Assembly: GCA_002686885.1 (NCBI GenBank)
Contig: NYYT01000124.1
Span: 9,996 to 49,502, forward strand
DNA length: 39,507 bases
Reading direction: 5' to 3'
Origin: Pedosphaera sp.
GTDB lineage: Bacteria > Verrucomicrobiota > Verrucomicrobiia > Limisphaerales > AAA164-E04
Shown here: positions 8,957 to 25,003 of the stretch, piece by piece
Layout of the letters: each line of letters begins with the position of its first letter
Numbering within the stretch: the first letter of the stretch is position 1
The notes under the pieces: generated by a model
Told to the model about the DNA's origin: nothing
The model's input: the letters and a program-made list of their open reading frames with translations, nothing else
Databases searched by the model: none
Program-made: the position numbers and the translations under genes

Positions 8957-9029
8957 TTGCGGAATTAGCCTGCTGTGCCAATGTATGAAACATTTTGAAA
9001 TCGCATCCGAGTCGGGGTGGTTCGCACCG

Positions 9030-12000
9030 ATGAAATGCCTTCCTTCCTTGGTCGTGCTCGGCGCGATGATGGGATGGCTGGTTTCATTCGCTGCCATGGC
9101 CCAGTCTGATGGCCTGGTAGCCTACTGGCCGCTGGATGAGCTGCGAGCCGGTGCCACTCCCGACGTCGTGAAGGACTATGACTTGAAAGCTACCCATCTT
9201 GATGTCAGCGATGTGGTGGCAGGGCGGCACGGGCGCGCCATCGCTTTTGAGAGTGGGCGTCAGACGCTGCTATCCCGCGTTCATGAAGTGGGCGAGGAGC
9301 TTCCCATCAACCAGCATCCCTCCTTTACCCTCTCCCTTTGGGTGAAGGTGGATGGTCGCAGGCAAAATGATCTGAGACTTTTCTCCGAAGGGAACACGGT
9401 GGACAGCAACCCTCTTTTCAATTTGGGGACACACAGCGGAGGGGCTGACGGTCGTTTGGATGTTTATCTTCGTCAGAGTGGTTGGCCTACGTTTGGCCAC
9501 TCCTACTCCGAGTATGAGCCATTGGATGGTCAATGGCATCATCTGGCTTGGGTGGAGCATGATGGGCAACGTTCTCTCTATGTGGATGGCCGCTTGGATG
9601 CTTTGGAGATCGCTCCTCGGCCAGATGGAGCCTGGCGCTTGGACAACACCACCTTGGGGGGTATCTTGCGTGCCTCCCCCTCGCATTGGGTCACCGGTCT
9701 CATCGATGATGTCGCCGTTTGGCGTCGTGCTCTTTCAGGGGATGAAATCCACCAGCTCTCGGAACAATCGGTCGGCGATTGGCTGGAAAATGGCGACGCA
9801 TCCCTCTCGGGATCACAAGTCAAGCTGAGTCGATATTGGGTCCAACGGTCTCATGAGGTTGGATCGGTCGTCGCCGATTTATCTCTCTCATCCGAAGAAG
9901 CCTTGGGGCCGGTTTCTTTTGAACTTGTGGAAGGTCAGGGATCCGAAGGCAACACCTCATTTGCGATTGAAGATCAAAAATTGATGTTGGTTTCGAGCTT
10001 GGAACGGCTTTCCCATGGGCAAGAATTGAACATTCGAATGAGAGTCCAAGATGCCGGTGGTTGGAACGATGAGGTGTCCATGACGATTCTGGTGATCAGT
10101 GGGGAGGGGCTCATAGCTCCGGTTCTGATTACAGAACTGATGGCCGATAACCAGGGTATCCATCTTGACGGCGATGGAAGAGCAGTCGATTGGATTGAAT
10201 TGCATAACCCTCTGAGCATTCCGGTCAGTTTGGCCGGTTACTTTCTGACCGATCAGATAGATGATTTACGTAAATGGATGTTTCCGCCCTGTGAGATGGA
10301 ACCCGGAGCTTACCTGGTGCTTTATGGTGGGGCACCGGAAGTCGATGGAGTGAGGCAGGAAGATTTTCGTGATGCTCAGGGTTTCCTGCATTTCAGTTTC
10401 AATCTTGATGCGGATGGAGAGTATCTTGCATTGGTTGAGCCTGATGGGCAGAGGATTGCCTTCGAATTGACCGAGAATTACCCTGCCCAGTTTGCGGATG
10501 TTTCCTACGGCATGAATGCTCAAGGACAGTGGTCTTTTCAAACCCGACCCACACCCGGTCGAGGAAACTCTGCAGGGGTTCTCGGTTGGGTGGGAGATAC
10601 GGTTTTTTCGGTGGATCGAGGCTTTTACGAAGAGCCTTTCGAAGTGGCTATTTCAACCTCTTCGGGGCAGGAGGCGATCATTCATTACACCTTGGATGGT
10701 AGTGAGCCCTCTCCTGATCATGGACTGGTTTATGAATCTCCGATCACGGTCAGCACCACAACGACCCTTCGGGCTATGGCATTTCGAGAAGGGTGGGAAT
10801 CTACCAATGTGGATACCCATACCTATGTCTTTGTGGATGATGTTGCCCACCAACCGGCTCAACCCTCAGGATGGCCTCAGAATTGGGGGCGCAACAGCGA
10901 AGTCGATGGTCGAGATGGAGCCGGTAATGGTATAGTGCCTGCAGATTACGAAATGGACCCGCGAGTGGTCGATCAAACCCTGGAGGGCTTCGGCATACGG
11001 GATGCGCTATTGGATATTCCCAGTGTTTCCATCGTGATGCATCCGGACGATTTCATTAAACCCGGAAGAGGCATTTATTCCATTCCACAATCGCGCATCG
11101 AGAGGGTTTGTTCGATGGAATACCTGCATCCTGACGGCACAAAAGGATTTCAGGAAAATGCCAAGATTGAGGTGCACGGCAACTCGAGTCGCCGCCCATG
11201 GCGCATGCAGAAGCACTCCCTGCGAATCACCTTCAGCGGTCAGGTCGGTGTAAAATCACTCGACTATCCCTTGTTTGAGAATTCTCCAGTGAGCCGATTC
11301 AACCAGCTGGTTCTTCGAGCCTGTTTTACCGATAGCTGGGCCTTGGTGAGCTGGGGGAGCAGTCGCTATCGTCCCAATGATTCTCAATACATCCGCGATG
11401 TATGGATGAAGGAATCCCTCCGTGACATGGGCCAGCCCTCCAGCCATGGATCGTTCGTGCATCTTTATGTGAACGGCTTGTACTTTGGCCTGCACAACCT
11501 GACGGAGCGATTGGCAGAGGATTTTTTCGCCGATCATTTGGGGGGGGATCCCGAGGACTGGGAAATCAATGAGGACTTCGGCAGTCCTGGGCCTCGATGG
11601 AATCAAATCCTTTCCATGGATGTGACAGACCCCGATGTCTACGAGGAGCTCCATCAGTATGTTGATCTGGCAAACCTGGCTGATTACAGCCTCTTGCATT
11701 TTTATGCGGATGCGGAGGATTGGCCGCACCACAATGGCTACGCAGCAGTCAATCCGGTTTCAGGGGATGGGCGGTACCGTTTTTTTGTGTGGGATCAGGA
11801 AATCGTCTTGGACAAGTTCACATGGAACCCGTTCAACAAAAATAGCGGGATGGGTGCTCTCTTCCAAAAGCTCCGAGCCAATACTGATTTCAGGCGTCTT
11901 TTTGCCGATCGAGTACAGAGGCATCTTTTTCATGGAGGTGCTTTGAGTCTGGAGGCAAGCCGTTCGCGTTACATGAACCTCGCTCAGCAAATTGACAAGG

Positions 12001-13943
12001 CCATCGTGGCTGAGTCGGCACGCTGGGGGGACACGCAGATGAGCACCCCTTATGGTAGCGTCATTGAACAACCCCGACCGTTGAGTGATGTGGATGATGA
12101 TCACTATCCGCCCGCTCCTCATGCGCCTGATGTTTACTTTACTCGCGAAGACTCCTGGCTAGTGGAGCGGGACAATGTGGTCGAACACTACCTGCCCACT
12201 TTGCATGATGCTTCCAGTCCCCATGCCGTGATCAATGAACTGAGAGCTGCCAACCTTTATCCCTCTCTGGATGCTCCCAGTCTTTCACTGAAGCCGGGCC
12301 CTGTGATTTCCGGGCAAGCATTGGGCATGCAGGCAACCCGAGGTAGCGTTTACTATACGTTGACGGGCCAGGATCCATGGCAACCTTCCAAGGATGCTCA
12401 ACAGGTGCTTCTACCCGACGGCGCGTCTGCCCATGCGTGGATCCCAGTGGATGATCGTCATGGTCTCTCCTGGACGCGGAAGAACTTCAGAGTGGATGAC
12501 ACTTGGTTGGAAGGTCGAACGGGCGTGGGCTATGAAACGAGCATTTCCGATTACAAGGGGTTTATAGGGCTGGATGTCATGGGAATGAGGAATTTCAATG
12601 GATCGGTCTACATACGGGTCCCCTTCGAGATGAGCGATTTGACCTGGATGAGCGATGACACCCGCGTCTTTCTTCACATACGCTATGATGATGGGTTTGT
12701 GGCCTACCTCAATGGTCGGGAAGTGGCGCGAGCCAACGCGCCACTGGGTCAACCCTCCTGGGACTCACTGGCCCGTGCTTCACATGCCGACAGTGCAGCC
12801 AGCCAATTTGAAGCGTTTGATATCACCGATCATCAAGGCGTGTGGGTTCAGGGAGAAAACGTCCTGGCCATTCATGGACTCAATGTCTCGCTTTCCAGTA
12901 GCGATTTGTTGATCACCCCCAAAATAGTGGCTTCGCAGAGAGTTCAAGGGGCCCTGCCTGCTGAAGTGCTTACTTACACACAGTCCATTCCACTGACACA
13001 GAGCGCCCATCTGAAGGCTCGTGCCTTCTACCAGGGTGAGTGGTCCGCTCTGACCGAGGCCCATTATTCCATGGGTCGTCCTCCAGCACCTGGTGATCTG
13101 GCCTTGACCGAAATACATTATCATCCGACTGAGCCACAGCAGGGTGAGTTTGTGGAGATCCTGAACATGGCGCAGGATACTCTGGTTTTGGATGGGGTTA
13201 CTCTCAGCGATGGACTCTCCTTTGTGTTTCCTCCCCAAAGCCTGCTCGAACCCGGACAGCGTGTGGTGGTTGCCCAAGATCCCCAGAGCCTGCGTGCCGC
13301 TTACCCGGGCATCCTGGTGTATGGCCCCTTCGTAAACCATACCCAGCTTTCCAACGGTGGCGAGCGTCTGAGTCTCTTGAACGCATCTGGAGACCTGCTT
13401 CTTGGTTTGAAATACGGCGATGAGGCACCGTGGCCTGATTCAGCAGATGGAAAGGGATACAGTCTGGTTCTCAGGGATCCCGCCGCACCCGGTGCGCTGA
13501 ACGACCCGGCGCTTTGGACTGCCAGCCATGCGTTGGGTGGATCACCGGGAGTGATGGATGTCAATGAGACAAGGAGCACTGTTTCCAGCGATGTCGATGC
13601 CGATGGAATCCCCGCACTAGGTGAAGCCTTTCATGGAACCAGTGATGCCGAGCCTCAAAAAGTCGAGGAAGTGTTCGTCATCCGGTCGGTCATCCAAAGC
13701 AATCCTGAACCTTCCATCGCCTGGGTGATGGATGTCTTGCATGATCCAGGTGCCACCGAAATCCTGATGGATATCGAAGTCTCCGTTGATCTGAAGACCT
13801 GGCAATCTGCCGGCATCTCCTTTGAGAAAACATCCGAAGTCATGGCAGATGAAGGGCGTGTCTGGCTGCGCCATACCTTGCCTCCAATGCAGACCCTTCC
13901 CAGTCGTCAATTCTTCCGGTTGAAGTACTTTCACCCTCGATGA
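9030..13943 (+). CDS. Giant secreted LamG / lamin-tail / CotH-domain protein
   Basis: A secreted protein of about 1637 residues. The start at 9030 (MKCLPSLVVLGAMMGWLVSF) gives a standard signal peptide and has GGGGTGG upstream; the longer ORF from 8985 would put 15 extra residues ahead of it. Domains in order: LamG/concanavalin-like (about 28-245, GLVAYWPLDEL to LIDDVAVWRRALS); a cadherin-like stretch (about 255-360); lamin-tail domain 1 (about 362-490, VLITELMADNQ); a chitobiase/FN3-type segment (about 520-600, IIHYTLDGSEPS); a CotH kinase-like domain (about 660-925, with KIEVHGNSSRRP, LHNLTER and FFVWDQE); a further galactose-binding-like segment; lamin-tail domain 2 (about 1355-1480, LALTEIHYHPTEP); and a short tail with DVDADGIP ending FFRLKYFHPR, typical of verrucomicrobial secreted proteins. 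The role is unknown; surface adhesion or protein phosphorylation outside the cell are options. Confidence 0.88.
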   Translation: MKCLPSLVVLGAMMGWLVSFAAMAQSDGLVAYWPLDELRAGATPDVVKDYDLKATHLDVSDVVAGRHGRAIAFESGRQTLLSRVHEVGEELPINQHPSFTLSLWVKVDGRRQNDLRLFSEGNTVDSNPLFNLGTHSGGADGRLDVYLRQSGWPTFGHSYSEYEPLDGQWHHLAWVEHDGQRSLYVDGRLDALEIAPRPDGAWRLDNTTLGGILRASPSHWVTGLIDDVAVWRRALSGDEIHQLSEQSVGDWLENGDASLSGSQVKLSRYWVQRSHEVGSVVADLSLSSEEALGPVSFELVEGQGSEGNTSFAIEDQKLMLVSSLERLSHGQELNIRMRVQDAGGWNDEVSMTILVISGEGLIAPVLITELMADNQGIHLDGDGRAVDWIELHNPLSIPVSLAGYFLTDQIDDLRKWMFPPCEMEPGAYLVLYGGAPEVDGVRQEDFRDAQGFLHFSFNLDADGEYLALVEPDGQRIAFELTENYPAQFADVSYGMNAQGQWSFQTRPTPGRGNSAGVLGWVGDTVFSVDRGFYEEPFEVAISTSSGQEAIIHYTLDGSEPSPDHGLVYESPITVSTTTTLRAMAFREGWESTNVDTHTYVFVDDVAHQPAQPSGWPQNWGRNSEVDGRDGAGNGIVPADYEMDPRVVDQTLEGFGIRDALLDIPSVSIVMHPDDFIKPGRGIYSIPQSRIERVCSMEYLHPDGTKGFQENAKIEVHGNSSRRPWRMQKHSLRITFSGQVGVKSLDYPLFENSPVSRFNQLVLRACFTDSWALVSWGSSRYRPNDSQYIRDVWMKESLRDMGQPSSHGSFVHLYVNGLYFGLHNLTERLAEDFFADHLGGDPEDWEINEDFGSPGPRWNQILSMDVTDPDVYEELHQYVDLANLADYSLLHFYADAEDWPHHNGYAAVNPVSGDGRYRFFVWDQEIVLDKFTWNPFNKNSGMGALFQKLRANTDFRRLFADRVQRHLFHGGALSLEASRSRYMNLAQQIDKAIVAESARWGDTQMSTPYGSVIEQPRPLSDVDDDHYPPAPHAPDVYFTREDSWLVERDNVVEHYLPTLHDASSPHAVINELRAANLYPSLDAPSLSLKPGPVISGQALGMQATRGSVYYTLTGQDPWQPSKDAQQVLLPDGASAHAWIPVDDRHGLSWTRKNFRVDDTWLEGRTGVGYETSISDYKGFIGLDVMGMRNFNGSVYIRVPFEMSDLTWMSDDTRVFLHIRYDDGFVAYLNGREVARANAPLGQPSWDSLARASHADSAASQFEAFDITDHQGVWVQGENVLAIHGLNVSLSSSDLLITPKIVASQRVQGALPAEVLTYTQSIPLTQSAHLKARAFYQGEWSALTEAHYSMGRPPAPGDLALTEIHYHPTEPQQGEFVEILNMAQDTLVLDGVTLSDGLSFVFPPQSLLEPGQRVVVAQDPQSLRAAYPGILVYGPFVNHTQLSNGGERLSLLNASGDLLLGLKYGDEAPWPDSADGKGYSLVLRDPAAPGALNDPALWTASHALGGSPGVMDVNETRSTVSSDVDADGIPALGEAFHGTSDAEPQKVEEVFVIRSVIQSNPEPSIAWVMDVLHDPGATEILMDIEVSVDLKTWQSAGISFEKTSEVMADEGRVWLRHTLPPMQTLPSRQFFRLKYFHPR

Positions 13944-13954
13944 TTTAAGGCATC

Positions 13955-13973
13955 CAAGCGGGTTTCCTGCTTG
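13955..13973 (+). other. Hairpin between the CotH-domain gene and recD2
   Basis: CAAGCGGG-TTT-CCTGCTTG forms an 8-base-pair stem (one G-U pair) with a 3-base loop in a 39-base gap. Its 3' arm contains the TTG used as the recD2 start in the ORF track, which argues for the ATG at 13983 instead. There is no T-tract on either side, so intrinsic termination is uncertain. Confidence 0.4.
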
Positions 13974-13982
13974 AATCGGATC

Positions 13983-16205
13983 ATGCGCTCACGCGATGAT
14001 CAGCACTTCTCGATGCCGGATCATCCCCAATCTCGCCAGGAAAGCCTATCGGGCTTGATTGAGCGTGTGACTTTCTTCAACGAAGACACGGGCTTTGTGG
14101 TTCTGCGCGTGAAGGCCAAGGGGAGGAAGGCTCTTCTGACGGTTCTCGGTAAAGTGGTTTCCGCCAATGCGGGTGAATGGATTCAGGCCGAAGGTTCGTG
14201 GCAGCGCGATCGAGACCATGGCATGCAATTCAGGGCCGATCGACTGGTGTGCACTCCACCCACCAACCGGGAAGGTATTGAGAAATACCTTGCCAGTGGA
14301 ATGATCAAGGGCATTGGGCCGGTCTATGCCAAGAAAATGGTGCAGAAATTTGGCGATGAGGTATTCGACATCATCGAGCATGCCTCGGCCCGCTTGGAAA
14401 CCATCGAGGGCATTGGGCCGGGGCGCCGAAAATTGATCAAGGATGCCTGGCAGGAACAGAAGGTCATTCGGGATATCATGGTCTTTTTGCACTCCAATGG
14501 AGTGAGCACCAGCCGAGCCGTGCGGATTTACAAGACCTATGGCGAGGAATCCATTGAAAAGCTTCAGCACAATCCCTACATCCTTTCACGCGACATCCGT
14601 GGCATCGGCTTCAAGATTGCGGATCAAATTGCCCAAAAGCTTGGGATTCCCAAAGATTCCCTGCATCGCTCTCAGGCCGGTTTGGCACATACCTTGACCA
14701 TGGCTACAGGCATGGGGCATTGCGGGCTTCCCGAGGAAATGCTCATCGAACAAACTACCGAACTGCTGGGTGTTCCTCCTGATGTGGTTTGCTCAGGCCT
14801 GAAGCAAGCGCTGAGCGAAGGGTCGGTGATTCGGGAAATACTGTGGGAAAAGCCGTTTATCTTTCTTCCTGCTCTCAAGGAAGCCGAAGAGGGCATTGCC
14901 AGGAGAGCCCTTCGACTGGCTGGAAAGCCTGCAGCCTATCCTCCCATTGATTTGGAACGGGCGATAGAGTGGGTTCAGGGGCAATCCAAAATCAAGTTGG
15001 CAGATTCTCAAGTCAAAGCGGTTCGCAATGCCTTGTTGCAACGTTTCATGATTCTGACGGGTGGACCGGGCGTCGGAAAGACCACCATCATTCGCTCCAT
15101 TCTCAAAATTCTGCATGCCAAGAAAGTTTCCTTTGCGTTGGCAGCGCCCACAGGCCGAGCCGCCAAGCGATTGGCTGAATCGACCGGTCACCCGGCCAAA
15201 ACCATTCATCGCCTGCTGGAAATGAATCCCCACACCGGACGCTTCCTGCATGATGAACATCATCCTCTGGAGGTGCAGCTTTTGGTGATCGATGAATGCT
15301 CCATGGTGGATATCCCCCTCATGTATCAGCTTTGGCGTGCCCTTCCTCCCGAAGCCCATTTGTTGCTGGTGGGTGATGTGGATCAGCTTCCCTCTGTCGG
15401 CCCTGGATCGGTGTTGAAAGATTTAATGACCAGCGGCTGCATTGAGGTGGCTCGGCTGGAAGAGATTTTCCGGCAGGCATCCACCAGTCAGATCATCACC
15501 AATGCCCACCGGATGAATCAGGGAGACATGCCGTTGACGAGCGAAGCTGGAGAGGAAGATTTTTATTTTCTGGAGCGAGATGAGCCCGAGCAGATTATCT
15601 CTGCGATGCTGTCCATGATCACTCAGCGCATTCCAAGGAAGTTTATGTTGGATCCGATGATGGATGTTCAGGTGTTGTGTCCCATGAATCGCGGAAGTCT
15701 CGGGGTGCGTGAAATGAATCTGACCTTGCAGGAGCGATTGAACCCATCGAGGGAAGGAGAGACCTATGTGGAAAAATTTGGTTGGCAGTTTCGTATCCGG
15801 GACAAGGTCATCCAGACGGAAAACAATTATGACAAGGATGTCTTCAATGGAGATATTGGGCAAATCACCAAGATTGATTTGGTGGAAAAAGAAGTGATCG
15901 TTGCCTTTGATCAGCGCAAAGTGAGCTATGATTTCGGGGAATTGGATGAGCTTGCCCTGGCCTATGCCATTACCATACACAAATCTCAGGGTTCGGAGTT
16001 TCCCGTGGTGGTGATTCCGGTGGCCACTCAGCAATTCCTCCTGCTCCAGCGCAACCTCATTTACACGGGGGTCACCCGAGGTCGAAAGCTGGTGCTCCTG
16101 GTGGGGCAGAAAAAGGCCCTGAACATGGCGGTTGCCAACGCTACCTCTGCTCGCCGCTATTCAGGTTTGCTGCACCGCATGCGAAGCATGGGTGAAAAGA
16201 CCTAG
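13983..16205 (+). CDS. recD2: RecD2-type ATP-dependent DNA helicase
   Basis: A superfamily 1B 5'-3' helicase of the RecD2 type, which works without RecBC, probably in DNA repair or replication-fork maintenance. The protein has about 740 residues. Seen: an N-terminal OB-like region (LSGLIERVTFFNEDTGFVVL); helix-hairpin-helix repeats (SGMIKGIGPVYAKK, LETIEGIGPGRRK, RDIRGIGFKIADQIA); Walker A LTGGPGVGKTT near residue 360; APTGRAAKRL; Walker B LLVIDECSMVD; motif III LVGDVDQLPSVGPG; an Arg motif (FRQASTSQIITNAHRMN); and the C-terminal UvrD-like YAITIHKSQGSEF and IYTGVTRGRKL. The long N-terminal HhH region separates it from RecBCD-type RecD. Possible starts are TTG 13971, ATG 13983 and ATG 14013; I choose 13983. 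Its stop codon shares the bases CTAG with the opposing scaffold gene. Confidence 0.92.
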   Translation: MRSRDDQHFSMPDHPQSRQESLSGLIERVTFFNEDTGFVVLRVKAKGRKALLTVLGKVVSANAGEWIQAEGSWQRDRDHGMQFRADRLVCTPPTNREGIEKYLASGMIKGIGPVYAKKMVQKFGDEVFDIIEHASARLETIEGIGPGRRKLIKDAWQEQKVIRDIMVFLHSNGVSTSRAVRIYKTYGEESIEKLQHNPYILSRDIRGIGFKIADQIAQKLGIPKDSLHRSQAGLAHTLTMATGMGHCGLPEEMLIEQTTELLGVPPDVVCSGLKQALSEGSVIREILWEKPFIFLPALKEAEEGIARRALRLAGKPAAYPPIDLERAIEWVQGQSKIKLADSQVKAVRNALLQRFMILTGGPGVGKTTIIRSILKILHAKKVSFALAAPTGRAAKRLAESTGHPAKTIHRLLEMNPHTGRFLHDEHHPLEVQLLVIDECSMVDIPLMYQLWRALPPEAHLLLVGDVDQLPSVGPGSVLKDLMTSGCIEVARLEEIFRQASTSQIITNAHRMNQGDMPLTSEAGEEDFYFLERDEPEQIISAMLSMITQRIPRKFMLDPMMDVQVLCPMNRGSLGVREMNLTLQERLNPSREGETYVEKFGWQFRIRDKVIQTENNYDKDVFNGDIGQITKIDLVEKEVIVAFDQRKVSYDFGELDELALAYAITIHKSQGSEFPVVVIPVATQQFLLLQRNLIYTGVTRGRKLVLLVGQKKALNMAVANATSARRYSGLLHRMRSMGEKT

Positions 16206-16735
16206 CTAGAGTCCTCCTCAGGTGGAAGCATCACCACCCGTAATCCCTGGCCGCCCTTGGCGGCATTCTGCATCTGATCCAGCAGGCTACCCTGAGTGGT
16301 GAGAGGAGAGCCTTCTGTCGATGGTTCACTGGCTTTTGTCTCAGGGCTGCCGCCCTCATGGGCTGCGATGGCGCTGCGAAGGGCATCCTCGACCATGGTG
16401 GTACAGTGGATCTTGGTAGGAGGCAAGGGGCCCAGGTCCGCCGCCATTTCCACCCCTGAGAGAGCCAGGGCCTCCGAGGTGCTTTTGCCCTTGATCAGTT
16501 CAGTCGCCAAGCTAGCAGCGGCAATGGCAGTCTCACAACCAAAGGATTGGAAGGAGGCCTTGTCGATGACCTTCTTGCCATCCTGGTCCTTGAACTTGAG
16601 CCACATGCGGAGCATATCGCCACAACCTGCCCCCCCGACAGTTCCGACGGCATCGGCATCTTCCATTTTTCCGAGGTTTTTGGGATTCGCAATGGCTTCA
16701 CGAACCTTTTCTTCAAAGGAGTCTGAGTGGGTCAT
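16202..16735 (-). CDS. IscU/NifU N-terminal-type iron-sulfur cluster scaffold with C-terminal tail
   Basis: The last gene of the suf operon encodes a 177-residue scaffold on which nascent Fe-S clusters are built from sulfur supplied by a cysteine desulfurase. The conserved ligands are present: Cys38 and Asp40 in GAGCGDML, Cys67 in FGCETAIA, and His110-Cys111 in LPPTKIHCTTM. The spacing from Cys67 to Cys111 and the retained His-Cys pair match IscU/NifU rather than Firmicutes SufU, which has an insertion there and uses zinc. LPPTK resembles the LPPVK chaperone-binding motif of IscU, although no hscA/hscB is seen here. After residue 125 comes a linker rich in S, T, E and P and a short conserved-looking end (GQGLRVVMLPPEE) of unknown role. 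It starts 8 bases after the rhodanese-like gene. Confidence 0.88.
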   Translation of the reverse strand: MTHSDSFEEKVREAIANPKNLGKMEDADAVGTVGGAGCGDMLRMWLKFKDQDGKKVIDKASFQSFGCETAIAAASLATELIKGKSTSEALALSGVEMAADLGPLPPTKIHCTTMVEDALRSAIAAHEGGSPETKASEPSTEGSPLTTQGSLLDQMQNAAKGGQGLRVVMLPPEEDSS

Positions 16736-16743
16736 GGTATGGG

Positions 16744-17310
16744 CTAGGATGCTTCAGGGGTGGGGGGCATGGGCTCGAGACGGTAACGCGGGATGGTTGG
16801 GTCCACTTGCTGAGACCACGCATCAATGCCACCTTCCATGCACCTGATTTGAGTGAAACCCTGTCCCTGAAAATAGGTGGCGGCATCCAGGCTGGTTTTC
16901 CCCTTGTGATCCACGATCACAAGGAGTGCATCCCGTTGCCATTGAGAGAGCATCATCTGCATGGATTCCTGAGACATGTGAGTGGATGCTTCCAGGTGAA
17001 CCGCATCCCATTCTTCGCTGGTGCGGATGTCGACAAGGTGGCATGGGGCATCCGACTTCAAGGCAGCTTCCACCTCGGTGGGAGACATCCAAAGTTGAAG
17101 GTCCTCATCGTGGCTCTGTTTGATGCGATCGATGACTTCCTGAGGATGAATGCGATCATTACGCTCACAAAGCTCCTTCAGTGTTTCTTCGGCATGGAAG
17201 GCGCAACTGGAGCAACCGCCGATGTGAAAGTGGCGGAACAGGGCCCTTTGCGCCCATGGGTAGGCCTCCAAAACGGCCTGCATGGTGGATTCAGGAGTGA
17301 TCTCTGACAT
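16744..17310 (-). CDS. CSSC-domain protein with degenerate rhodanese domain, in the suf operon
   Basis: The ORF track extends to 17394 through an upstream alternative start inside sufS. The ATG at 17310 (MSEITPEST), 10 bases after the sufS stop, fits operon spacing and gives 188 residues. Residues about 8-65 form a small helical domain with HIGGCSSCAFHAEETL (Cys33, Cys36), similar to DUF1858-type domains. Residues about 73-170 form a rhodanese-like domain (HLVDIRTSEEWDAVHLEAS at the front, CMEGGIDAW at the end). The active-site loop, normally a Cys followed by xxGxRS, reads DHKGKTS with Asp134 in place of the sulfur-carrying Cys, so persulfide chemistry at that site is not expected. The CSSC pair could carry sulfur or metal instead. 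The role is inferred from its place between sufS and the scaffold gene. Confidence 0.8.
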   Translation of the reverse strand: MSEITPESTMQAVLEAYPWAQRALFRHFHIGGCSSCAFHAEETLKELCERNDRIHPQEVIDRIKQSHDEDLQLWMSPTEVEAALKSDAPCHLVDIRTSEEWDAVHLEASTHMSQESMQMMLSQWQRDALLVIVDHKGKTSLDAATYFQGQGFTQIRCMEGGIDAWSQQVDPTIPRYRLEPMPPTPEAS

Positions 17311-17320
17311 GGAACAGAAC

Positions 17321-18541
17321 TTAGTTACGGTCTGCGAAACGTTTGTAAAGATGATCGAGAATCTCGAGGGATCGGTCAACTTCCTCCTTGTCATTGTAAA
17401 AATAGAAGCTGGCCCTGGCCGTGCCGGTGATCCCCCATTTTTTCATCAGCGCCTGGGTGCAATGGTGGCCACCTCTCAATGCCAACCCCTTCTGGTCTGC
17501 CAAAGTCACCAGGTCATGTACATGAAGCCCATCGAGGAGAAAACTTACCAAACCGCCTCTGTTGGTTGGCGGACCAAAGACCCGGACCCCGGGGAAGCGT
17601 CGGATTTCATCATAAAAATACTGAGCAAGGGCCTGGTCGTGGTCGTGGATCTGTTGGCGACCGATGGCGTCGATGTAGTCCATGGCTCTGGCAAGCCCCA
17701 CGGCTCCAGCCATATTGGGAGTCCCAGCCTCGTAACGATGGGGGGATGCCTTGAAGCTGGGCCTCTCAAAGGTGACCTCCTGGATCATTTCCCCACCTCC
17801 CTGGTAAGGCGGCCAGGAGTCCATGATTGATTTTCGAGCGTAGAGTACCCCAATACCTGTAGGCCCACATATTTTGTGTCCTGAGAAGGCATAGAAATCA
17901 CAATCGATTTCCTGAACATCGATGGGCATGTGTCCGGCACTTTGCGCTCCATCGACCAGAGTGAGTATGCCCTTGGAGCGAGCCTTCTGACATAATTCCT
18001 TGACCGGATTGATGGTGCCCAGACTGTTGGAGACATGGACACAGCTCAGGAGTTTGACATCCTCTCTCAAACGATTGTCCAACCAACTCAGGTCAAGGCT
18101 GCCATCCTTTTCAAGGACGGGAATAAATTCCAGGGTGGCCCCTGTCCTTGAAGCAAGGATTTGCCAGGGGACCATGTTGCTGTGGTGCTCCATTTCGGTG
18201 ATGAGAATCTTGTCCCCGGGTCCCAACGAGTTTTGCCCCAGGCAGTGGGCGACCAGATTGATGGATTCAGTGGTGCCCCGAGTGAAGATAATGTCCGATG
18301 CACTGCTTGCATGAAGGAATTCAGCGGTCCGCTCCCTGGCAGACTCGTAGGCAAGAGTGGCGCGGTTGCTGAGCTCATGAATGCCGCGGTGAACATTCGC
18401 ATGGTCCTTTTGGTAATAAGCCTTGATGGCCTCGATGACCTGATTGGGTTTCTGGCTGCTTGCGGCATTGTCGAAATAGATCAGTGGATGCCCATTGACG
18501 GACTGTTCCAGAATGGGGAAGTCATGCCTGAAATGCTTCAT
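17321..18541 (-). CDS. sufS: Cysteine desulfurase SufS (type II)
   Basis: A PLP enzyme that converts cysteine to alanine and loads the sulfur onto its own cysteine for Fe-S cluster assembly. The ATG at 18541 (MKHFRHDFP) gives 406 residues, the same length as E. coli SufS; the ORF track's longer start at 18565 is a TTG. Seen: IYFDNAASSQKP near 21; TEMEHHSNMVPW (116-127); DGAQSAGH (197-204); the PLP lysine in SGHKICGPTG (Lys223); YEAGTPN; and the catalytic Cys361 in RGGHHCTQ. The short loop around the cysteine marks group II, which usually needs SufE or SufU as sulfur acceptor. Neither classical SufE nor zinc-type SufU is present in this operon. It lies 53 bases downstream of sufT. Confidence 0.95.
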   Translation of the reverse strand: MKHFRHDFPILEQSVNGHPLIYFDNAASSQKPNQVIEAIKAYYQKDHANVHRGIHELSNRATLAYESARERTAEFLHASSASDIIFTRGTTESINLVAHCLGQNSLGPGDKILITEMEHHSNMVPWQILASRTGATLEFIPVLEKDGSLDLSWLDNRLREDVKLLSCVHVSNSLGTINPVKELCQKARSKGILTLVDGAQSAGHMPIDVQEIDCDFYAFSGHKICGPTGIGVLYARKSIMDSWPPYQGGGEMIQEVTFERPSFKASPHRYEAGTPNMAGAVGLARAMDYIDAIGRQQIHDHDQALAQYFYDEIRRFPGVRVFGPPTNRGGLVSFLLDGLHVHDLVTLADQKGLALRGGHHCTQALMKKWGITGTARASFYFYNDKEEVDRSLEILDHLYKRFADRN

Positions 18542-18594
18542 GAAAGTAGGGTGAGTCTGGCTCAAGGTGCTCGTATTGAGGAGGGCGGCTTCGC

Positions 18595-19155
18595 TTACAT
18601 CAAGCCGAGCTGAAGTCGGGCGGCTTCAGTCATCATGTCCTGGCTCCACTGCGGTTCCCAGACCAGTTCGACATCGGCCTGAGCCACATCTTCAATGCAC
18701 ATCACCTTGTTCTGTACATCCTGCTGAATCACCGGCCCCATGCCACATCCGGGAGCCGTGAGTGTCATCTTCACCAGCACGTTGAATTCGTTGCCTTCCT
18801 CAATCGGAGTGACCACGCAATCATAAATCAATCCCAGGTCCACGATGTTGACCGGGATTTCCGGGTCATAGCAGGTTTTCATCTGTTCCCAGACCTGTGC
18901 TTCGACCTCTTCGGCGGTAGCCTTTTCACCTGCGACCGCCGCCTGGATGCGGACTTCTTCGACTTCCCTCCCGAGGGCGTCGGCATGTTTGCCTTGAATG
19001 CGAAACATGTTGCCGTTGACGATCACCGTGAAGGCTCCACCCAGCTCTTGAGTGATCTGGGCTTCCTCGCCTTGTTTGAGTGTGACTGGTTCACCGGTGG
19101 GCACAATGGCCGCTTCGACATCTCGACTGAGAATGATCTGGGTTTCTTGGCTCAT
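18595..19155 (-). CDS. sufT: SufT, Fe-S cluster assembly/maturation protein (MIP18/DUF59 family)
   Basis: An auxiliary Fe-S maturation factor of 186 residues. The N-terminal part (about 5-65: LSRDVEAAIVPTGEPVTL, QELGGAFTVIVNGNMFRI) is specific to the SufT branch. The MIP18/DUF59 domain follows at about 84-180 with DPEIPVNIVDLGLIYD (97-112) and LTAPGCGMGP (132-141, Cys137). The start at 19155 overlaps the sufD stop in an ATGA arrangement, which suggests translational coupling; the track's longer start at 19212 would run deep into sufD. In other bacteria SufT helps deliver clusters to client proteins. A separate YPLP-type regulatory role is not supported here. Confidence 0.92.
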   Translation of the reverse strand: MSQETQIILSRDVEAAIVPTGEPVTLKQGEEAQITQELGGAFTVIVNGNMFRIQGKHADALGREVEEVRIQAAVAGEKATAEEVEAQVWEQMKTCYDPEIPVNIVDLGLIYDCVVTPIEEGNEFNVLVKMTLTAPGCGMGPVIQQDVQNKVMCIEDVAQADVELVWEPQWSQDMMTEAARLQLGLM

Positions 19156-20516
19156 GACAGGGGAGTAGAGGTGTGGGCGTGAAAGTGCGGAAGGGCTTCG
19201 AGTTGTTCCCACACTAAATCGTCGAGAGACTTTCGAATGTTTGGATGCTCAATACGATCGATGATTTCACCAGCAAAGGCATGCACCAGCATACGCCTGG
19301 CCCTGGCCATTGGGATCCCTCGAGCACGCAGATACCAAATGGCCTGGTCATCCAGCTGGCCGATGGTTGCCCCGTGCGTGCAGCGAACATCATCTGCATA
19401 AATCTCAAGTTGAGGTTTGGTGTCCGCGGTGGCGGCATCGGAAAGCAAGAGATTTTTGTTGGTTTGCTTGGCATCTGTTTTCTGTGCTACCTGACGCACG
19501 TGGATGCGGCCATGGAAGACGCTGCGGGATTGATCGTCCAGAATCCCATTGAAGTATTCATGGCTTTCGGTGTGCTGTTGGGCATGATCCACGACCATGT
19601 GGTGGTCGATGATCTGATCGCCTTGGGCGAGTGAGAGCCCGTTGAGCGTGCAGCAAAGCCCGGGTCCATCCAGGTGCGTTCGGATATGGTTGCGGCTGAT
19701 CCGTCCTCCGAGGCTTAAATGATGGGAATCCATGCGCGCATCTCGCGTGATGCGTGCATAGATACTGGCCATGTGAAAGGCCTGCTTGGATTCATCTTGA
19801 ACTTTGATATGCTCTAGATAAGCGTTGTCTTCCACCAGGCATTCCAAGGTAGGAGCCGAGAGATACACCCCTTGATCCATGCCATGGAAGCTTTCCATGA
19901 CCGTGGCTTTTGAACCGGCCTCCATGTGAATCCAACAGCGGGCAAAAATGGCAGAGGCCTGAGGCTGTGCCGTGGTCACATGCATGATTTGGATGGGAAG
20001 CTCCAGTTGGACCCCCTTGGGAACCTTCAAGCAAATGCCGTCTTCAAAACAGGCAGCGTTGAGGGCTGCAAATGGACTATCGTTACCGTAGGTGTATTGA
20101 CCGAGGTGGTTTTTGAGCGGCGACTCGGGGTCTTGAACCGCCTGCTTAAGGGACCTAAGGCAGACTTCCTCTGGGAGCAGCGATCGATCGGACAAGGTTT
20201 CATTAAAGATGCCATCCACCAAAACCACACGAATACAGGCTGGATCCTTCAGTGGGTTTTCGATGCTCTGAAATGCCTCCTTGGAAATCCCCTTTGAATT
20301 GGAGGGGTGTTGGAAGGAGCACGAACGCATCGGATCCAGATTGGTGAACCGCCAGTCCTCATCGGAAAGAGTCGGGCATCCACTGCTTGCATAGCCTGCG
20401 ACCCCTGCTTTGCGGATGGGGGTCAGCCAGGTAGGGCCTTCATGCATCTCTGGATCCAGTGAATCCAACAGAGGAATAAAGGGATCGGTCGGGGGAGCTT
20501 TCAAGGTTTCGGTCAT
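19152..20516 (-). CDS. sufD: SufD, subunit of the SufBCD scaffold complex
   Basis: A 454-residue partner of SufB and SufC in the ATP-dependent cluster-building complex. The C-terminal beta-helix core is clear (CLKVPKGVQLELPIQIMH, ARCWIHMEAGSKATVMESF, YLEHIKVQDESKQAFHMAS, DHHMVVDHAQQHTESHEYF, VFHGRIHVRQVAQKTDAKQ). So is the conserved tail DDVRCTHGATIGQLDDQAIWYLRARGIP, which includes the Cys and His needed at the SufB-SufD interface. The N-terminal helical part carries DEDWRFTNLDPM. It starts 6 bases after sufC and overlaps sufT by 4 bases. Confidence 0.95.
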   Translation of the reverse strand: MTETLKAPPTDPFIPLLDSLDPEMHEGPTWLTPIRKAGVAGYASSGCPTLSDEDWRFTNLDPMRSCSFQHPSNSKGISKEAFQSIENPLKDPACIRVVLVDGIFNETLSDRSLLPEEVCLRSLKQAVQDPESPLKNHLGQYTYGNDSPFAALNAACFEDGICLKVPKGVQLELPIQIMHVTTAQPQASAIFARCWIHMEAGSKATVMESFHGMDQGVYLSAPTLECLVEDNAYLEHIKVQDESKQAFHMASIYARITRDARMDSHHLSLGGRISRNHIRTHLDGPGLCCTLNGLSLAQGDQIIDHHMVVDHAQQHTESHEYFNGILDDQSRSVFHGRIHVRQVAQKTDAKQTNKNLLLSDAATADTKPQLEIYADDVRCTHGATIGQLDDQAIWYLRARGIPMARARRMLVHAFAGEIIDRIEHPNIRKSLDDLVWEQLEALPHFHAHTSTPLS

Positions 20517-20522
20517 GATATT

Positions 20523-21311
20523 TCAATGAGACAACGCAGCAGTTGTCGCCTGAGCTTCCTCGATCACCCAGTCATAACCTTTTTCTTCCAGCTTGAGAGC
20601 CAGTTCCTTGGGGCCGCTCTTGATGATACGCCCATCGTAAAGGACATGCACGACATCAGGGACGATGTAATCAAGCAGTCGCTGATAATGTGTGATGACC
20701 AGTTGAGAAGTTTGCGGACTCCTGAGTTGGTTCACCCCGTTGGCGACTACTTTGAGAGCGTCAATATCCAGACCTGAATCGGTTTCATCCAACACCGCCA
20801 TCACGGGTTCGAGGGCCGCCATCTGAAAGATTTCGTTTCGCTTTTTCTCACCCCCTGAAAACCCCACATTGAGCGAACGCTTGAGGAAGTCTTCAGGTAA
20901 GTCGAGCAAGGCGGCCTTCTCCTTGATGTATTTCAAGAAAGCCACGGCATCGAGTTCCTTCTCTCCGCGCGCTTTGCGGACTTCATTGATGGCTGACTTG
21001 AGAAAATAGGTGGTGTTGACACCCGGGATTTCGACCGGGTATTGAAACGCCAGGAACAGCCCAAGATGCGCCCTTTCCTCAGGTGCACATTCCAGGATGT
21101 CCTGATCCTTGAAGTGAATATTCCCTCCCAGGATTTCATATCCCTCTCGCCCAGCGATGACAGAAGCCAGGGTGCTTTTCCCGCTCCCGTTCGGCCCCAT
21201 GATGGCATGGACTTCACCCGACTGAATTTCCAGATCTATTCCCTTGAGGATTTTCCGGCCTTCGACGCCGGCTTGCAGGTTGGTTATTCTCAACAATGAT
21301 GGGTTGGACAT
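20523..21311 (-). CDS. sufC: SufC, ABC-type ATPase of the SufBCD complex
   Basis: A cytoplasmic ATPase of 262 residues that drives conformational change in SufB/SufD during cluster assembly; it is not a transporter. Seen: Walker A GPNGSGKST (39-47), Q-loop FLAFQYPVEIPGV, ABC signature GFSGGEKKRNEIFQ, Walker B/D-loop AVLDETDSGLDIDAL and switch His in VITHYQRLLDYI. GFSGGEKKR and YPVEIPGV are diagnostic for SufC. The ATG at 21309-21311 follows sufB by 43 bases. No Shine-Dalgarno is visible, as for most genes of this operon. Confidence 0.96.
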   Translation of the reverse strand: MSNPSLLRITNLQAGVEGRKILKGIDLEIQSGEVHAIMGPNGSGKSTLASVIAGREGYEILGGNIHFKDQDILECAPEERAHLGLFLAFQYPVEIPGVNTTYFLKSAINEVRKARGEKELDAVAFLKYIKEKAALLDLPEDFLKRSLNVGFSGGEKKRNEIFQMAALEPVMAVLDETDSGLDIDALKVVANGVNQLRSPQTSQLVITHYQRLLDYIVPDVVHVLYDGRIIKSGPKELALKLEEKGYDWVIEEAQATTAALSH

Positions 21312-21354: not shown

Positions 21355-22803
21355 TTAACCGACACTTCCCTCCAGGCTGACACCGAGAAGTTTTTGAGCC
21401 TCCATGGCAAATTCCATGGGGAGTTCGCTGAAGACTTCCTTGCAGAAACCATTGACGATCATGTTGACCGCATCCTGGGTCGAGATGCCACGCTGATTGC
21501 AGTAAAAGATCTGATCTTCACCAATCTTGCTCGTGGTCGCTTCGTGCTCGATGCTCGCAGTGGTGTTTTTTGCTTCGATGTAGGGAAAGGTGTGGGCTCC
21601 ACACTGGTCTCCAATCAAGAGCGAGTCACACTGAGAGAAATTGCGTGCACCACTGGCTGATTTACGTACCTGGACCAGCCCGCGATAGCTGTTTTGACCG
21701 CGACCCGCAGAGATTCCCTTTGAGACAATCGTGCTTTTGGTGTCCTTACCGATATGAACCATTTTCGTTCCCGTATCGGCCTGCTGACGACGATTGGTCA
21801 ACGCCACTGAGTAAAATTCTCCAACGCTCTGGTCTCCAAGCAGGATACAGCTTGGATATTTCCAAGTGACTGCTGAGCCGGTTTCAACCTGTGTCCAGGA
21901 AATCTTGGAAGCACGTCCTTTGCAAATCCCGCGCTTGGTCACGAAATTGTAGATCCCTCCCTTTCCTTCTTCATCCCCGGGATACCAGTTCTGCACCGTT
22001 GAATATTTGATTTCTGCCTGGTCCAGGGCGACCAGCTCCACCACGGCGGCGTGCAACTGGTTTTCATCGCGCATGGGTGCGGTGCATCCTTCGAGGTAAC
22101 TGACATAGCTACTGTCCTCTGCCACGATGAGGGTTCTCTCAAATTGGCCCGACTTGGCCGCATTGATCCGAAAATAAGTGGAAAGTTCCATCGGGCAACG
22201 GACTCCCTTGGGTATGTAAACAAAGGATCCATCACTGAAGACCGCCGAGTTGAGAGCGGCATAAAAATTATCCGTGTAGGGAACCACGCTGCCCAAGTAG
22301 CGCTGCACCAGTTCCGGATGCTCCTGCACGGCTTCAGACATCGAGCAGAAGATGATCCCTTTCTCAGCCAATGTTTCCTTGTAGGTGGTGCCTACTGAAA
22401 CACTGTCAAAAACAGCATCCACGGCCACGCCGGCAAGTTTGGCGCGTTCGTGAAGCGGAATGCCCAGCTTTTCATAGGTTTCCAATAACTTGGGATCCAC
22501 CTCATCCAGACTCTTCGGGCCATCACTGGCTTTTTTGGGCGCTGAATAATAAATGATATCCTGAAAATCAACCGGAGGGTAGCTTACCTTGGGCCACGTG
22601 GGGGGCTGCATGGTGAGCCAGTGCCGGTAGGCTTTGAGACGCCACTCCAGCATGAAGGCGGGCTCGTTTTTCTTGTGAGAGATAAAACGGATGATGTCTT
22701 CGTTGAGCCCTGGAGGTGCTGATTCGGCTTCAATATCAGTGATGAAGCCGTATTTGTAGTCGCTTTTGACAAATCCTTCGATGGTTTCGGTGGCGCTGCT
22801 CAT
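21355..22803 (-). CDS. sufB: SufB, scaffold subunit of the SufBCD complex
   Basis: The main scaffold for new Fe-S clusters in the Suf system. The ATG at 22803 ([11 protein letters not shown]) gives 482 residues, normal for SufB; the track's extension to 22866 uses a GTG. Seen: [80 protein letters not shown] (the C-T-A-P region used in cluster binding), [21 protein letters not shown] and the C-terminal [22 protein letters not shown] with the conserved Glu and Cys. It is the first structural gene after the Fur/PerR regulator, with 103 bases between them. Confidence 0.96.
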
Positions 22804-22906
22804 GTTGTTGATGGAACTGCGTAATCTTGTTTCAAAGTTCAAAAAGTTTGTGAAGCCACAGCACACGGTGGCCTAGATGCTATCTCGCGGTCTTTCCCCC
22901 CACGTT

Positions 22907-23365
22907 TTAATTTCGATTTCGGTTTGGGCACTTCAAAGGGTCGGCACATCGACCTCGAAGCGAGATATCCACCTGGGTAGGGACCAGGTTTCTGGGAAGT
23001 TTCAATGGTAGTTCCCCTTTATCTTTTTTGAAATCCACGTCGTGGATGCTGCCACATTCCTCACAGAAAAAGTGACAGTGTTCGTTCATGTTGGAACAGT
23101 AACGAGAGGCTGTACGTTCGACATTGACCTGTTTGATCAGGCCACATTTGACCAGCGCATCCAGTGTGTTGTAAACCGTTGCCATGGAGAGCTCCGGCAT
23201 GGCTGATTTGGCCCTCAGGTAAACTTCGTCTGCTGTGGGGTGATCGGTCTGCTGGAGCAGAGTATGATAAACATGCTCCCGCTGTGCGGTCATGCGCATG
23301 CCGCTGCTGGCTAGCTTGTGAGCCAGGTCCTGATCGCTTGTCGCAGATGGAAGATCCTTTTTCAT
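22907..23365 (-). CDS. Fur/PerR-family metal-dependent repressor heading the suf operon
   Basis: A 152-residue regulator from the ATG at 23365 (MKKDLPSAT); the track's start at 23413 lies upstream of the predicted promoter elements. The winged-helix region includes GMRMTAQREHVYHTLL and ELSMATVYNTLDALVKCGLI. Compared with B. subtilis PerR, the metal-site positions line up at a constant offset of 5: His42 (H37), Cys90 (D85), His96 (H91), His98 (H93) and Asp109 (D104). Asp at the last position favours PerR-type over Fur-type behaviour, but Cys at the second is unusual. The structural zinc Cys pairs are CEEC (101, 104) and CADPLKC (140, 146), the second wider than the usual CxxC. It probably controls itself and suf in response to iron or peroxide. 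That role is inferred from family, position and the palindrome at 23417. Confidence 0.9.
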   Translation of the reverse strand: MKKDLPSATSDQDLAHKLASSGMRMTAQREHVYHTLLQQTDHPTADEVYLRAKSAMPELSMATVYNTLDALVKCGLIKQVNVERTASRYCSNMNEHCHFFCEECGSIHDVDFKKDKGELPLKLPRNLVPTQVDISLRGRCADPLKCPNRNRN

Positions 23366-23385
23366 GACAGTCAAAACGCTGATGT

Positions 23386-23413
23386 AATGTAGTGGCACCC
23401 AGAGGTGTGTCAA
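23386..23413 (-). promoter_or_regulatory. Predicted sigma70-type promoter of the Fur/PerR gene and suf operon
   Basis: On the minus strand a perfect -35 TTGACA (23408-23413) is followed, after 16 bases, by TACATT (23386-23391), matching the -10 consensus at 4 of 6 positions. The start codon is 20 bases further on. The element sits 3 bases from the palindromic operator at 23417-23431. Confidence 0.6.
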
Positions 23414-23431: not shown

Positions 23432-23566
23432 ATATAAATTCCTTTGGTCAAAGTGGTTTCACGGGTTGCAAAGTTCTCTTTCATGGAGTGATGCCCTGTG
23501 AATGCAGGGCATGTGGCAAGCCTTCGCGTTGACGGCATCGTGCTCAAACGACATGATGACAACACC

Positions 23567-25003
23567 ATGCATCGAATGCATCAACTGAGCTGGTTGTGGA
23601 TCCCTCTCTTTTTGGCAATGGGGCAGGTGCTCACCCTGGGCGAAAACCCCAGACCCAACGTGCTGGTGATCCTGGCCGATGACTGCACCCGCAGCGATCT
23701 GAGGCTCTACGGCGGAAAAAATGCCCTCACTCCTCACATCGATCGCCTGGCTGATGACGGTCTTGTGTTTGATCATGCCTATCTGACCTCTGCCATGTGT
23801 CAGCCCTGTCGAGCTGAGCTCTACACTGGTCTTTTTCCCATGCGCAATGGGTGTGCCTGGAATCATTCCGCCAGTCGTCCCGGCACCATGAGTCTTCCTC
23901 ATTATTTAGGGCCTTTGGGATATCGTGTTGGGCTGGCCGGTAAAGTGCATGTCACCCCACCATCCTCTTTTCCCTTCGAATCCATCGGCGGATTTGATTC
24001 CAACTGTGTGCGTTCTCCGACTCAGCCACATCGCTTGGATGAAGTGACTGAATTCATCACTCGCGACCCAAGCCAGCCTTTTTGCCTGGTGGTGGCATTG
24101 GTCGAACCTCATGTGCCTTGGGTGATGGGCGATCCCTCCCAATACCCTCCTGAAAAAATTCACCTTCCACCCCATCTTGCAGATACCATCCGTACGCGTG
24201 AGGATTTCAGCCGATACCTGGCCGAAATAACCTACATGGATTCCCAGGTGGGTGCACTCCTGGATGCGCTGGAGCATGCCTCTCAGGAGAACAACACCTT
24301 GGTCTTGTTTTCCTCGGAACAGGGTGCTCAATTTCCTGGCTGTAAATGGACCAACTGGGATGCCGGTTTGCATACGGCTCTGCTTGCCAGATGGCCTGGA
24401 CACATTCGCGAGGGTCAACGCACTTCAGCCATCGTTCATTATGCGGATGTCCTTCCCACCTTGATCGATTTGGCCGGAGGTGAGATGGAATCGAGAGCTC
24501 TGGATGGCTGGAGTTTTACTGAAGTCTTATCAGGGCGGCAAAAGACCCATCGCAGCTTGAGTTTTGGCATGCATAACAATGTGCCTGAAGGCCCTCCTTA
24601 CCCCATTCGGAGTGTCAACAATGGAAGGTATCACTACATCCGTAACCTTCTTCCAGATGATATCTATATCGAAAAGCACCTGATGGGTCTCCGTGGCAAC
24701 GGCAAGCTCAACAACCCCTATTGGGCCAGTTGGGTTTGGGATGCCACCGATAATCCTCAAACCTATGCGTTGGTCAAGCGCTACACGCATCGTCCAGCAG
24801 AGGAACTTTATGATCTGACCATGGATCCTCATGAAATGAGTAACCGAATCGACGATCCGTCACTTCAAGCCATCAGGCAGTCGTTAAGTGATTCATTGGA
24901 TCAATGGATGTTGGAACAGTCCGATCCCGGAGTGGAGCAGGACACCTGGCGCTCATTGGAGGCCTCTCGCGTGGGAGAACATCGCTATGGCCCTCCTCAG
25001 TAG
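23567..25003 (+). CDS. Secreted Cys-type sulfatase (heparan N-sulfatase-like)
   Basis: A second, unrelated-looking sulfatase. The track starts at a GTG (23498). The ATG at 23567 (MHRMHQLSWLWIPLFLAMGQ) gives a clean signal peptide and 478 residues. Seen: metal site VLVILADDCTRSD near 32; formylglycine motif MCQPCRAELYTGL, fitting C-x-P-x-R with Cys as the convertible residue; GLAGKVHV; LVEPHVPW; LVLFSSEQGAQ with the later metal ligands; and GCKWTNWDAGLHTALLARWPG with the substrate-site Lys. The overall pattern resembles the N-sulfoglucosamine sulfohydrolase branch; the substrate is not determinable by eye. It diverges from the Fur/PerR gene, so the operator at 23417 may affect it. A formylglycine-generating enzyme elsewhere would be required for activity. 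Confidence 0.9.
   Translation: MHRMHQLSWLWIPLFLAMGQVLTLGENPRPNVLVILADDCTRSDLRLYGGKNALTPHIDRLADDGLVFDHAYLTSAMCQPCRAELYTGLFPMRNGCAWNHSASRPGTMSLPHYLGPLGYRVGLAGKVHVTPPSSFPFESIGGFDSNCVRSPTQPHRLDEVTEFITRDPSQPFCLVVALVEPHVPWVMGDPSQYPPEKIHLPPHLADTIRTREDFSRYLAEITYMDSQVGALLDALEHASQENNTLVLFSSEQGAQFPGCKWTNWDAGLHTALLARWPGHIREGQRTSAIVHYADVLPTLIDLAGGEMESRALDGWSFTEVLSGRQKTHRSLSFGMHNNVPEGPPYPIRSVNNGRYHYIRNLLPDDIYIEKHLMGLRGNGKLNNPYWASWVWDATDNPQTYALVKRYTHRPAEELYDLTMDPHEMSNRIDDPSLQAIRQSLSDSLDQWMLEQSDPGVEQDTWRSLEASRVGEHRYGPPQ

Follow-up and report, generated by a model that had tools for sequence, protein, structure and literature searches.

Locus Organization

The stretch of DNA analyzed in this study (39,507 nucleotides; hereafter, the window) carries a cluster of suf genes on the reverse strand, in which the last two genes encode a rhodanese-fold protein, designated X, and an Fe-S scaffold protein, designated S. 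The gene order is that of a tight operon: fur/perR-like, sufB, sufC, sufD, sufT, sufS, X, scaffold. The annotated features are listed below in window coordinates.

22907..23413, reverse strand: regulator of the Fur/PerR family, heading the cluster, synteny conserved
21355..22866, reverse strand: sufB, with a likely ATG start at 22803
20523..21311, reverse strand: sufC
19152..20516, reverse strand: sufD
18595..19212, reverse strand: sufT, long form (TIGR03406 above the cut-off), adjoining the X-S pair in many members of the class
17321..18565, reverse strand: sufS, cysteine desulfurase (TIGR01979 above the cut-off), directly upstream of X in this taxonomic order
16744..17310, reverse strand: protein X, 188 aa, with a DUF1858-like CSSC domain and an Asp-type rhodanese domain
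17095..17310, reverse strand: residues 1-72 of X, an N-terminal domain of four helices resembling DUF1858/TIGR03980
17203..17214, reverse strand: Cys33-Ser-Ser-Cys36 motif of X, both Cys invariant in 58/58 orthologues
16810..17082, reverse strand: rhodanese domain of X, residues 77-167, PF00581
16906..16911, reverse strand: Asp134-His135 of X at the rhodanese active-site position, with Asp for Cys, invariant in 58/58 orthologues
16202..16735, reverse strand: scaffold S, a diverged IscU/NifU-N-type protein and the strict co-occurrence partner of X

The X open reading frame is in frame, starting with ATG at position 17310 and encoding 188 aa followed by a stop codon. Its start lies 10 bp past the sufS stop and its end 8 bp ahead of the scaffold start; because of these spacings, X is regarded as a member of the operon, and its placement between sufS and a scaffold gene, first noted in a sequence-only reading of this DNA, was confirmed. 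The sufD gene and the listed sufT ORF share 61 bases (window 19152-19212), and a downstream ATG may be the true sufT start. On the forward strand, a sulfatase gene (window 23498-25003) is divergent from the Fur/PerR-family gene heading the suf cluster, and a RecD2-like helicase gene (window 13971-16205, with a TTG start in the ORF call) is convergent with the scaffold gene, overlapping its stop by four bases. Another forward-strand gene (window 8985-13943) encodes a secreted-type protein of 1652 aa containing LamG, CotH-kinase, lamin-tail, and chitobiase-C-like domains.

Domain Architecture and Predicted Structure of X

The X sequence contains Cys33 and Cys36 within HIGGCSSC and Asp134 within VDHKGKTS. 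The PF00581 model matched residues 77-167 (E 6.3e-12; 46.3 bits against a cut-off of 22.2), which places X in the rhodanese family. In the alignment with E. coli GlpE, Asp134 falls on Cys65, the nucleophile. Both the Asp at the catalytic Cys position and the Cys33/Cys36 pair in the N-terminal domain had been pointed out in the sequence-only reading, and both were borne out. The catalytic Cys of an active rhodanese (thiosulfate sulfurtransferase) is thus absent from X, its position being occupied by Asp in 58 of 58 orthologues. No match to the SufE domain (PF02657) or to NifU_N was obtained with X, indicating that it is neither a SufE nor a SufU.

The N-terminal domain had been described as DUF1858-like, and the likeness stood, with weak matches at the sequence level. 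TIGR03980 matched X with an E value of 0.0013 and 18.7 bits, below the curated cut-off of 44.95, and gave weak matches in 20 of 22 orthologues; the DUF1858 model of Pfam matched weakly in only 2 of the 22. Folded separately, the domain was predicted with a pLDDT of 93, and the only plausible neighbours of the predicted fold were 2k53 and 2k5e, at non-significant values (probability 0.75-0.87, E about 0.8-1.0). The 2k5e structure was also the sole sequence match of the domain, and the CxxC motif expected of TIGR03980/DUF1858 is present. The full-length model of X (pLDDT 93.2, pTM 0.81) had GlpE (1gmx; Foldseek E 7.2e-07) and MOCS3 (3i2v) as its nearest folds. The structural matches included 5hbq, in which the YgaP rhodanese domain carries a C63D mutation, an experimental mimic of the Cys-to-Asp replacement in X.

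Conservation of X and Its Cys-Retaining Homologues

Orthologues of X were collected from order-level relatives, GTDB genomes, and a phylum sample of 388 genomes. The search of GTDB genomes yielded ten full-length matches, all belonging to Verrucomicrobia or a member group. The 58 distinct orthologues have a median pairwise identity of 48% and share 18 invariant positions, including His29, Gly31, Gly32, Cys33, Cys36, Asp94, Arg96, Glu100, Asp134, His135, Arg175, and Tyr176. The codons of invariant residues vary synonymously among the 58 sequences: Asp134 is encoded by GAT in 40 and GAC in 18, Cys33 by TGC in 50 and TGT in 8, and Cys36 by TGC in 36 and TGT in 22. Because Asp134 is invariant at 48% identity and its codon has undergone synonymous changes, we conclude that it has been fixed by selection and not by decay. 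Neither a close orthologue with Cys at position 134 nor poor conservation of the CSSC pair, the two observations that the sequence-only reading had named as counting against it, was found in this alignment.

Decay of X and sequencing error were ruled out by the 58/58 invariance. The loss of the catalytic Cys might suggest a decaying, functionless remnant of a rhodanese, a reading refuted by the conservation of Asp134 and the CSSC pair under synonymous turnover and also opposed by the co-retention of X with S (see below); its probability is negligible.

Four genomes of family f92, outside the class (G422, G444, G448, and G449), encode homologues with the two-domain architecture of X and a CxxC motif (CQSC). 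The rhodanese Cys is retained in the three complete homologues, those of G422, G444, and G448 (YCQDGQGS, YCRDGAGS), and the RY C-terminus is missing; the G449 homologue ends before the position of the rhodanese Cys. No suf genes were detected near the homologues at the two loci read (G422 and G448), and no type-S scaffold was detected in G422. As far as sampled, with the presence of S checked in G422 of f92, the Cys-to-Asp state goes together with scaffold S. Loci L112, L113, and L114 hold such f92 homologues with an intact rhodanese Cys outside suf clusters; they form a natural control and permit a direct comparison with the Asp form.

Co-Occurrence of X and S

A profile built from S recognized S at E <= 1e-67 and canonical NifU/IscU at about 1e-35 or weaker in the phylum sample; in the order sample, canonical NifU/IscU reached down to 2e-40, and SufU was also cleanly separated. 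Among the 388 genomes of the phylum sample, S was present in exactly 30, identical to the 30 with full-length X(Asp). Among the 58 genomes of the order sample, X and S were both found in the same 32 and neither in the other 26, one of the two being incomplete in G008, G036, and G047, where it runs into a contig end or gap. The two samples overlap in G000 and G051 and thus comprise 444 genomes, 60 of which contain both X(Asp) and S, none S alone, and none X(Asp) alone. Because neither X(Asp) nor S was found without the other across these genomes, the pair is probably a functional module.

Simple operon linkage as the cause of the pairing was ruled out by unlinked co-occurrence in two lineages, f50 and f55/g85. 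The X and S genes are 1.2-3.4 Mb apart in the single-contig genomes G309, G312, and G376 and lie on different contigs in G257, G245, and others. Within family f50, both genes are missing from the two g52 genomes placed on the tree, as well as from G435. On a quick rpoB tree of 76 genomes, X and S changed together in nine of nine independent pairs on supported branches (p 0.004), some of these pairs being linked loci, for which independence is overstated. Part of the co-gain and co-loss within the order could be due to a linked block having been transferred or lost as a unit. SufE and SufU did not track X on the species tree.

Adjacency of X and S is common, and in many members of the class the two genes are accompanied by sufT and not by sufS. 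The constant partner of X is scaffold S, not SufS; SufS as the main partner was not supported, since X often occurs without SufS nearby and tracks S exactly. It is very probable that X and S function as a pair, and their co-occurrence demonstrates functional dependence, not direct binding. A separate observation concerns G051, in which a type-S scaffold (G051:C64:17531-18010; L197:6523-8163) is located away from X, directly beside a gene for a 381-aa protein with a C-terminal rhodanese domain and about the length of MoeB/MoeZ, forming another rhodanese-scaffold neighbourhood.

Features of Scaffold S

S scores as IscU/NifU and not as SufU. Of the residues conserved in IscU-type scaffolds (three Cys, Asp39, His105, and Lys103), S has Cys38, Cys67, Cys111, and His110 in 33/33 sequences and Lys108 in 32/33, and the Asp39 equivalent is Asp in 22 and Glu in 11, which identifies S as an IscU-type scaffold. 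The N-terminal IscS-contact motif (Y..DHYENPRN) is absent from S: the His10 position is occupied by Ala in 30/33 and never by His, and the aromatic residue at the Tyr11 position is replaced by I/M/L/V/A/R. In the E. coli complex, Tyr11 of IscU touches IscS; the Y11A substitution alone was not enough to abolish the IscU-IscS binding, and deletion of residues 1-12 abolished it (PMC2854127). If the docking partner of S has changed, the loss of the N-terminal His/aromatic pair would be expected. Among the S proteins of the window (16202-16735) and of class loci L064-L081, many have a conserved tail after the NifU_N domain (about SLLD...G(v)K(I/V)VFL) that could be a binding peptide.

No match to canonical IscU was found in the 60 X carriers, and 11 non-carriers of the order possess it. 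At both loci read (G021 and G041), canonical IscU directly adjoins an iscS-like gene. The carriers and non-carriers showed no difference in IscS/NifS, such genes being present in both. The X-S pair may take the place of IscS-IscU.

Relation of X to SufE, SufU, and SufS

X had been put forward in the sequence-only reading as a candidate for a missing sulfur relay. Its assignment to the Fe-S machinery was supported; the relay proved not to be missing. A sufE gene is located on another contig of the window's genome (G000:C103:5606-5980; E 7.7e-42). The operon in G038 and G011 has the order B-C-D-sufE-T-sufS-X-scaffold; that of G020 contains X and, in the sufE slot, a SufU-like gene; sufE accompanies X in the operons of L108 and L109, and a SufU-like gene does so in L106. 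In the order sample, SufE or a SufU-like gene was found in 26 of 30 full-length X carriers, three of the four exceptions being genomes of 75-80% completeness. Since sufE occurs elsewhere in the genome, both types of gene coexist with X in operons, and neither follows X on the tree, X is not a stand-in for SufE or SufU; the shared operons and the lack of covariation rule out such a substitution.

Proposed Function and Alternative Explanations

We propose that X is a dedicated partner of the adjacent scaffold S and that the two constitute an accessory Fe-S assembly module atop a complete SUF system, a proposal with about an even chance of being correct. In this model, X would bind S. The rhodanese domain would act as a docking module, in which Asp134 would keep the active-site loop permanently charged and unable to form or carry a persulfide, and the CSSC domain would perform thiol chemistry on the S cysteines. 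It might receive persulfide sulfur from a desulfurase and hand it on to S, or it might reduce a persulfide or disulfide on S, delivery and reduction being about equally probable. The involvement of Cys33/Cys36 in thiol or persulfide chemistry is rather likely; a structural disulfide or a metal site would likewise fit the CxxC pair. The division of roles suggested in the sequence-only reading, with chemistry on the CSSC domain and docking on the rhodanese fold, is compatible with everything observed, its chemical part being what we infer.

In the same reading, X would accept sulfur from SufS in the manner of SufE or SufU, the CSSC domain taking the sulfur and the rhodanese domain docking on SufS. 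Such a role would agree with the position of X directly behind sufS in this order, with the absence of sufE from the operon of the window, and with the ability of rhodaneses to accept sulfur from, and stimulate, cysteine desulfurases, as found for STR18 with ABA3 (PMC8931425). However, this role is unlikely: the same genome encodes SufE elsewhere, X shares operons with sufE or SufU-like genes, X covaries with S but with neither SufE nor SufU, and many class members have X beside S and SufT and not beside SufS. SufS may still be a partner of X, given the gene order described above.

Two further explanations were considered. X could handle iron or another metal for S, or support it structurally: Asp134-His135, possibly with His29, Cys33, and Cys36, would bind Fe(II) or hold the complex together in a frataxin-like manner. 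These residues are invariant, and Asp, His, and Cys side chains are typical metal ligands; yet the parent architecture has Cys at the Asp134 position, and the Asp134 loop is, by homology, the anion-binding cradle of rhodaneses and not a known metal site, so that the chance of this function is slim. X could also be a redox sensor or regulator, the disulfide state of its CSSC motif altering docking on S or SufS and throttling Fe-S assembly. The annotation of TIGR03980 as a redox disulfide domain, the Fur/PerR-family gene at the start of the cluster, and the precedent of TROL, an Asp-for-Cys rhodanese thought to regulate FNR binding (PMC12295754), are in line with this idea. Nevertheless, a regulator would not need exact co-retention with one scaffold in unlinked genomes, and X shows no tie to a signal; a regulatory function is therefore considered improbable.

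Returning to X as the dedicated partner of S, we tentatively extend the proposal to an undescribed Fe-S module of Verrucomicrobiia, in which an IscU scaffold devoid of the desulfurase docking motif would have a Cys-less rhodanese as its obligate adaptor and thiol partner, the two replacing IscS-IscU alongside SUF; this wider version is plausible but rather doubtful.

Fe-S assembly is usually framed as ISC, SUF, or NIF with few partners, and a scaffold never found without one Asp-rhodanese would add a component to the list of these partners. So far, SufE and SufU are the persulfide carriers that have been named for SUF systems (PMC8593673). No description of a DUF1858-rhodanese fusion or of this operon was found in the literature; X is probably a rhodanese-fold accessory of Fe-S assembly, a kind already known, with the X-S pair itself undescribed. 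The pair would explain the use of an IscU-type scaffold by a SUF organism, and X represents a natural experiment on the function of the rhodanese fold without its cysteine. The X-S pairing is well supported and its chemistry conjectural; the pair is of good interest because it is strict and open to direct testing.

Comparison with Known Systems

X shares its fold with the GlpE and MoeZ/MOCS3 rhodaneses (PF00581), which gave the best sequence and structure matches, and its -RY C-terminus also occurs in the rhodaneses of L041-L043. It differs from GlpE and MoeZ/MOCS3 in the replacement of the catalytic Cys by Asp (58/58), in the additional N-terminal CSSC domain, and in having an IscU-type scaffold as a partner. 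With its predicted helical fold and C-x-x-C after a helix, the N-terminal domain resembles DUF1858/TIGR03980, the hybrid cluster protein-associated redox disulfide domain (2k53, 2k5e), the fold matches having non-significant E values; the domain in X scores under the curated cut-offs, is fused to a rhodanese, is tied to Fe-S assembly, and adds the invariant His29 and Gly31-Gly32.

S belongs to the family of IscU/NifU N-domain scaffolds (4eb5, 3lvl), with three Cys and LPPxKxHC. Unlike these, it has Asp or Glu at the Asp39 position and a C-terminal tail, with Trp45 and Asp58 both invariant; it has lost the N-terminal His/aromatic pair and, by co-occurrence, requires X. With SufE and SufU, X has in common the operon neighbourhood and possibly a cysteine-based sulfur hand-over, but it contains neither domain, and a single operon can hold X alongside sufE or a SufU-like gene.

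Pairs of a rhodanese with a desulfurase or SufE are known, namely STR18-ABA3 (PMC8931425) and SseA-SufE of Mtb (PMC12375888). In these, as in the case of X, a rhodanese-fold protein is paired with Fe-S or desulfurase components; however, those rhodaneses are catalytically active, and X cannot be at Asp134. The rhodanese domain of TROL, from the Arabidopsis thylakoid, resembles X in having Asp at the position of the active-site Cys, and a docking and regulatory role has been proposed for it (PMC12295754). In contrast to X, TROL resides in the thylakoid membrane of plants and has a tail that binds FNR, with no CSSC domain and no link to an Fe-S scaffold.
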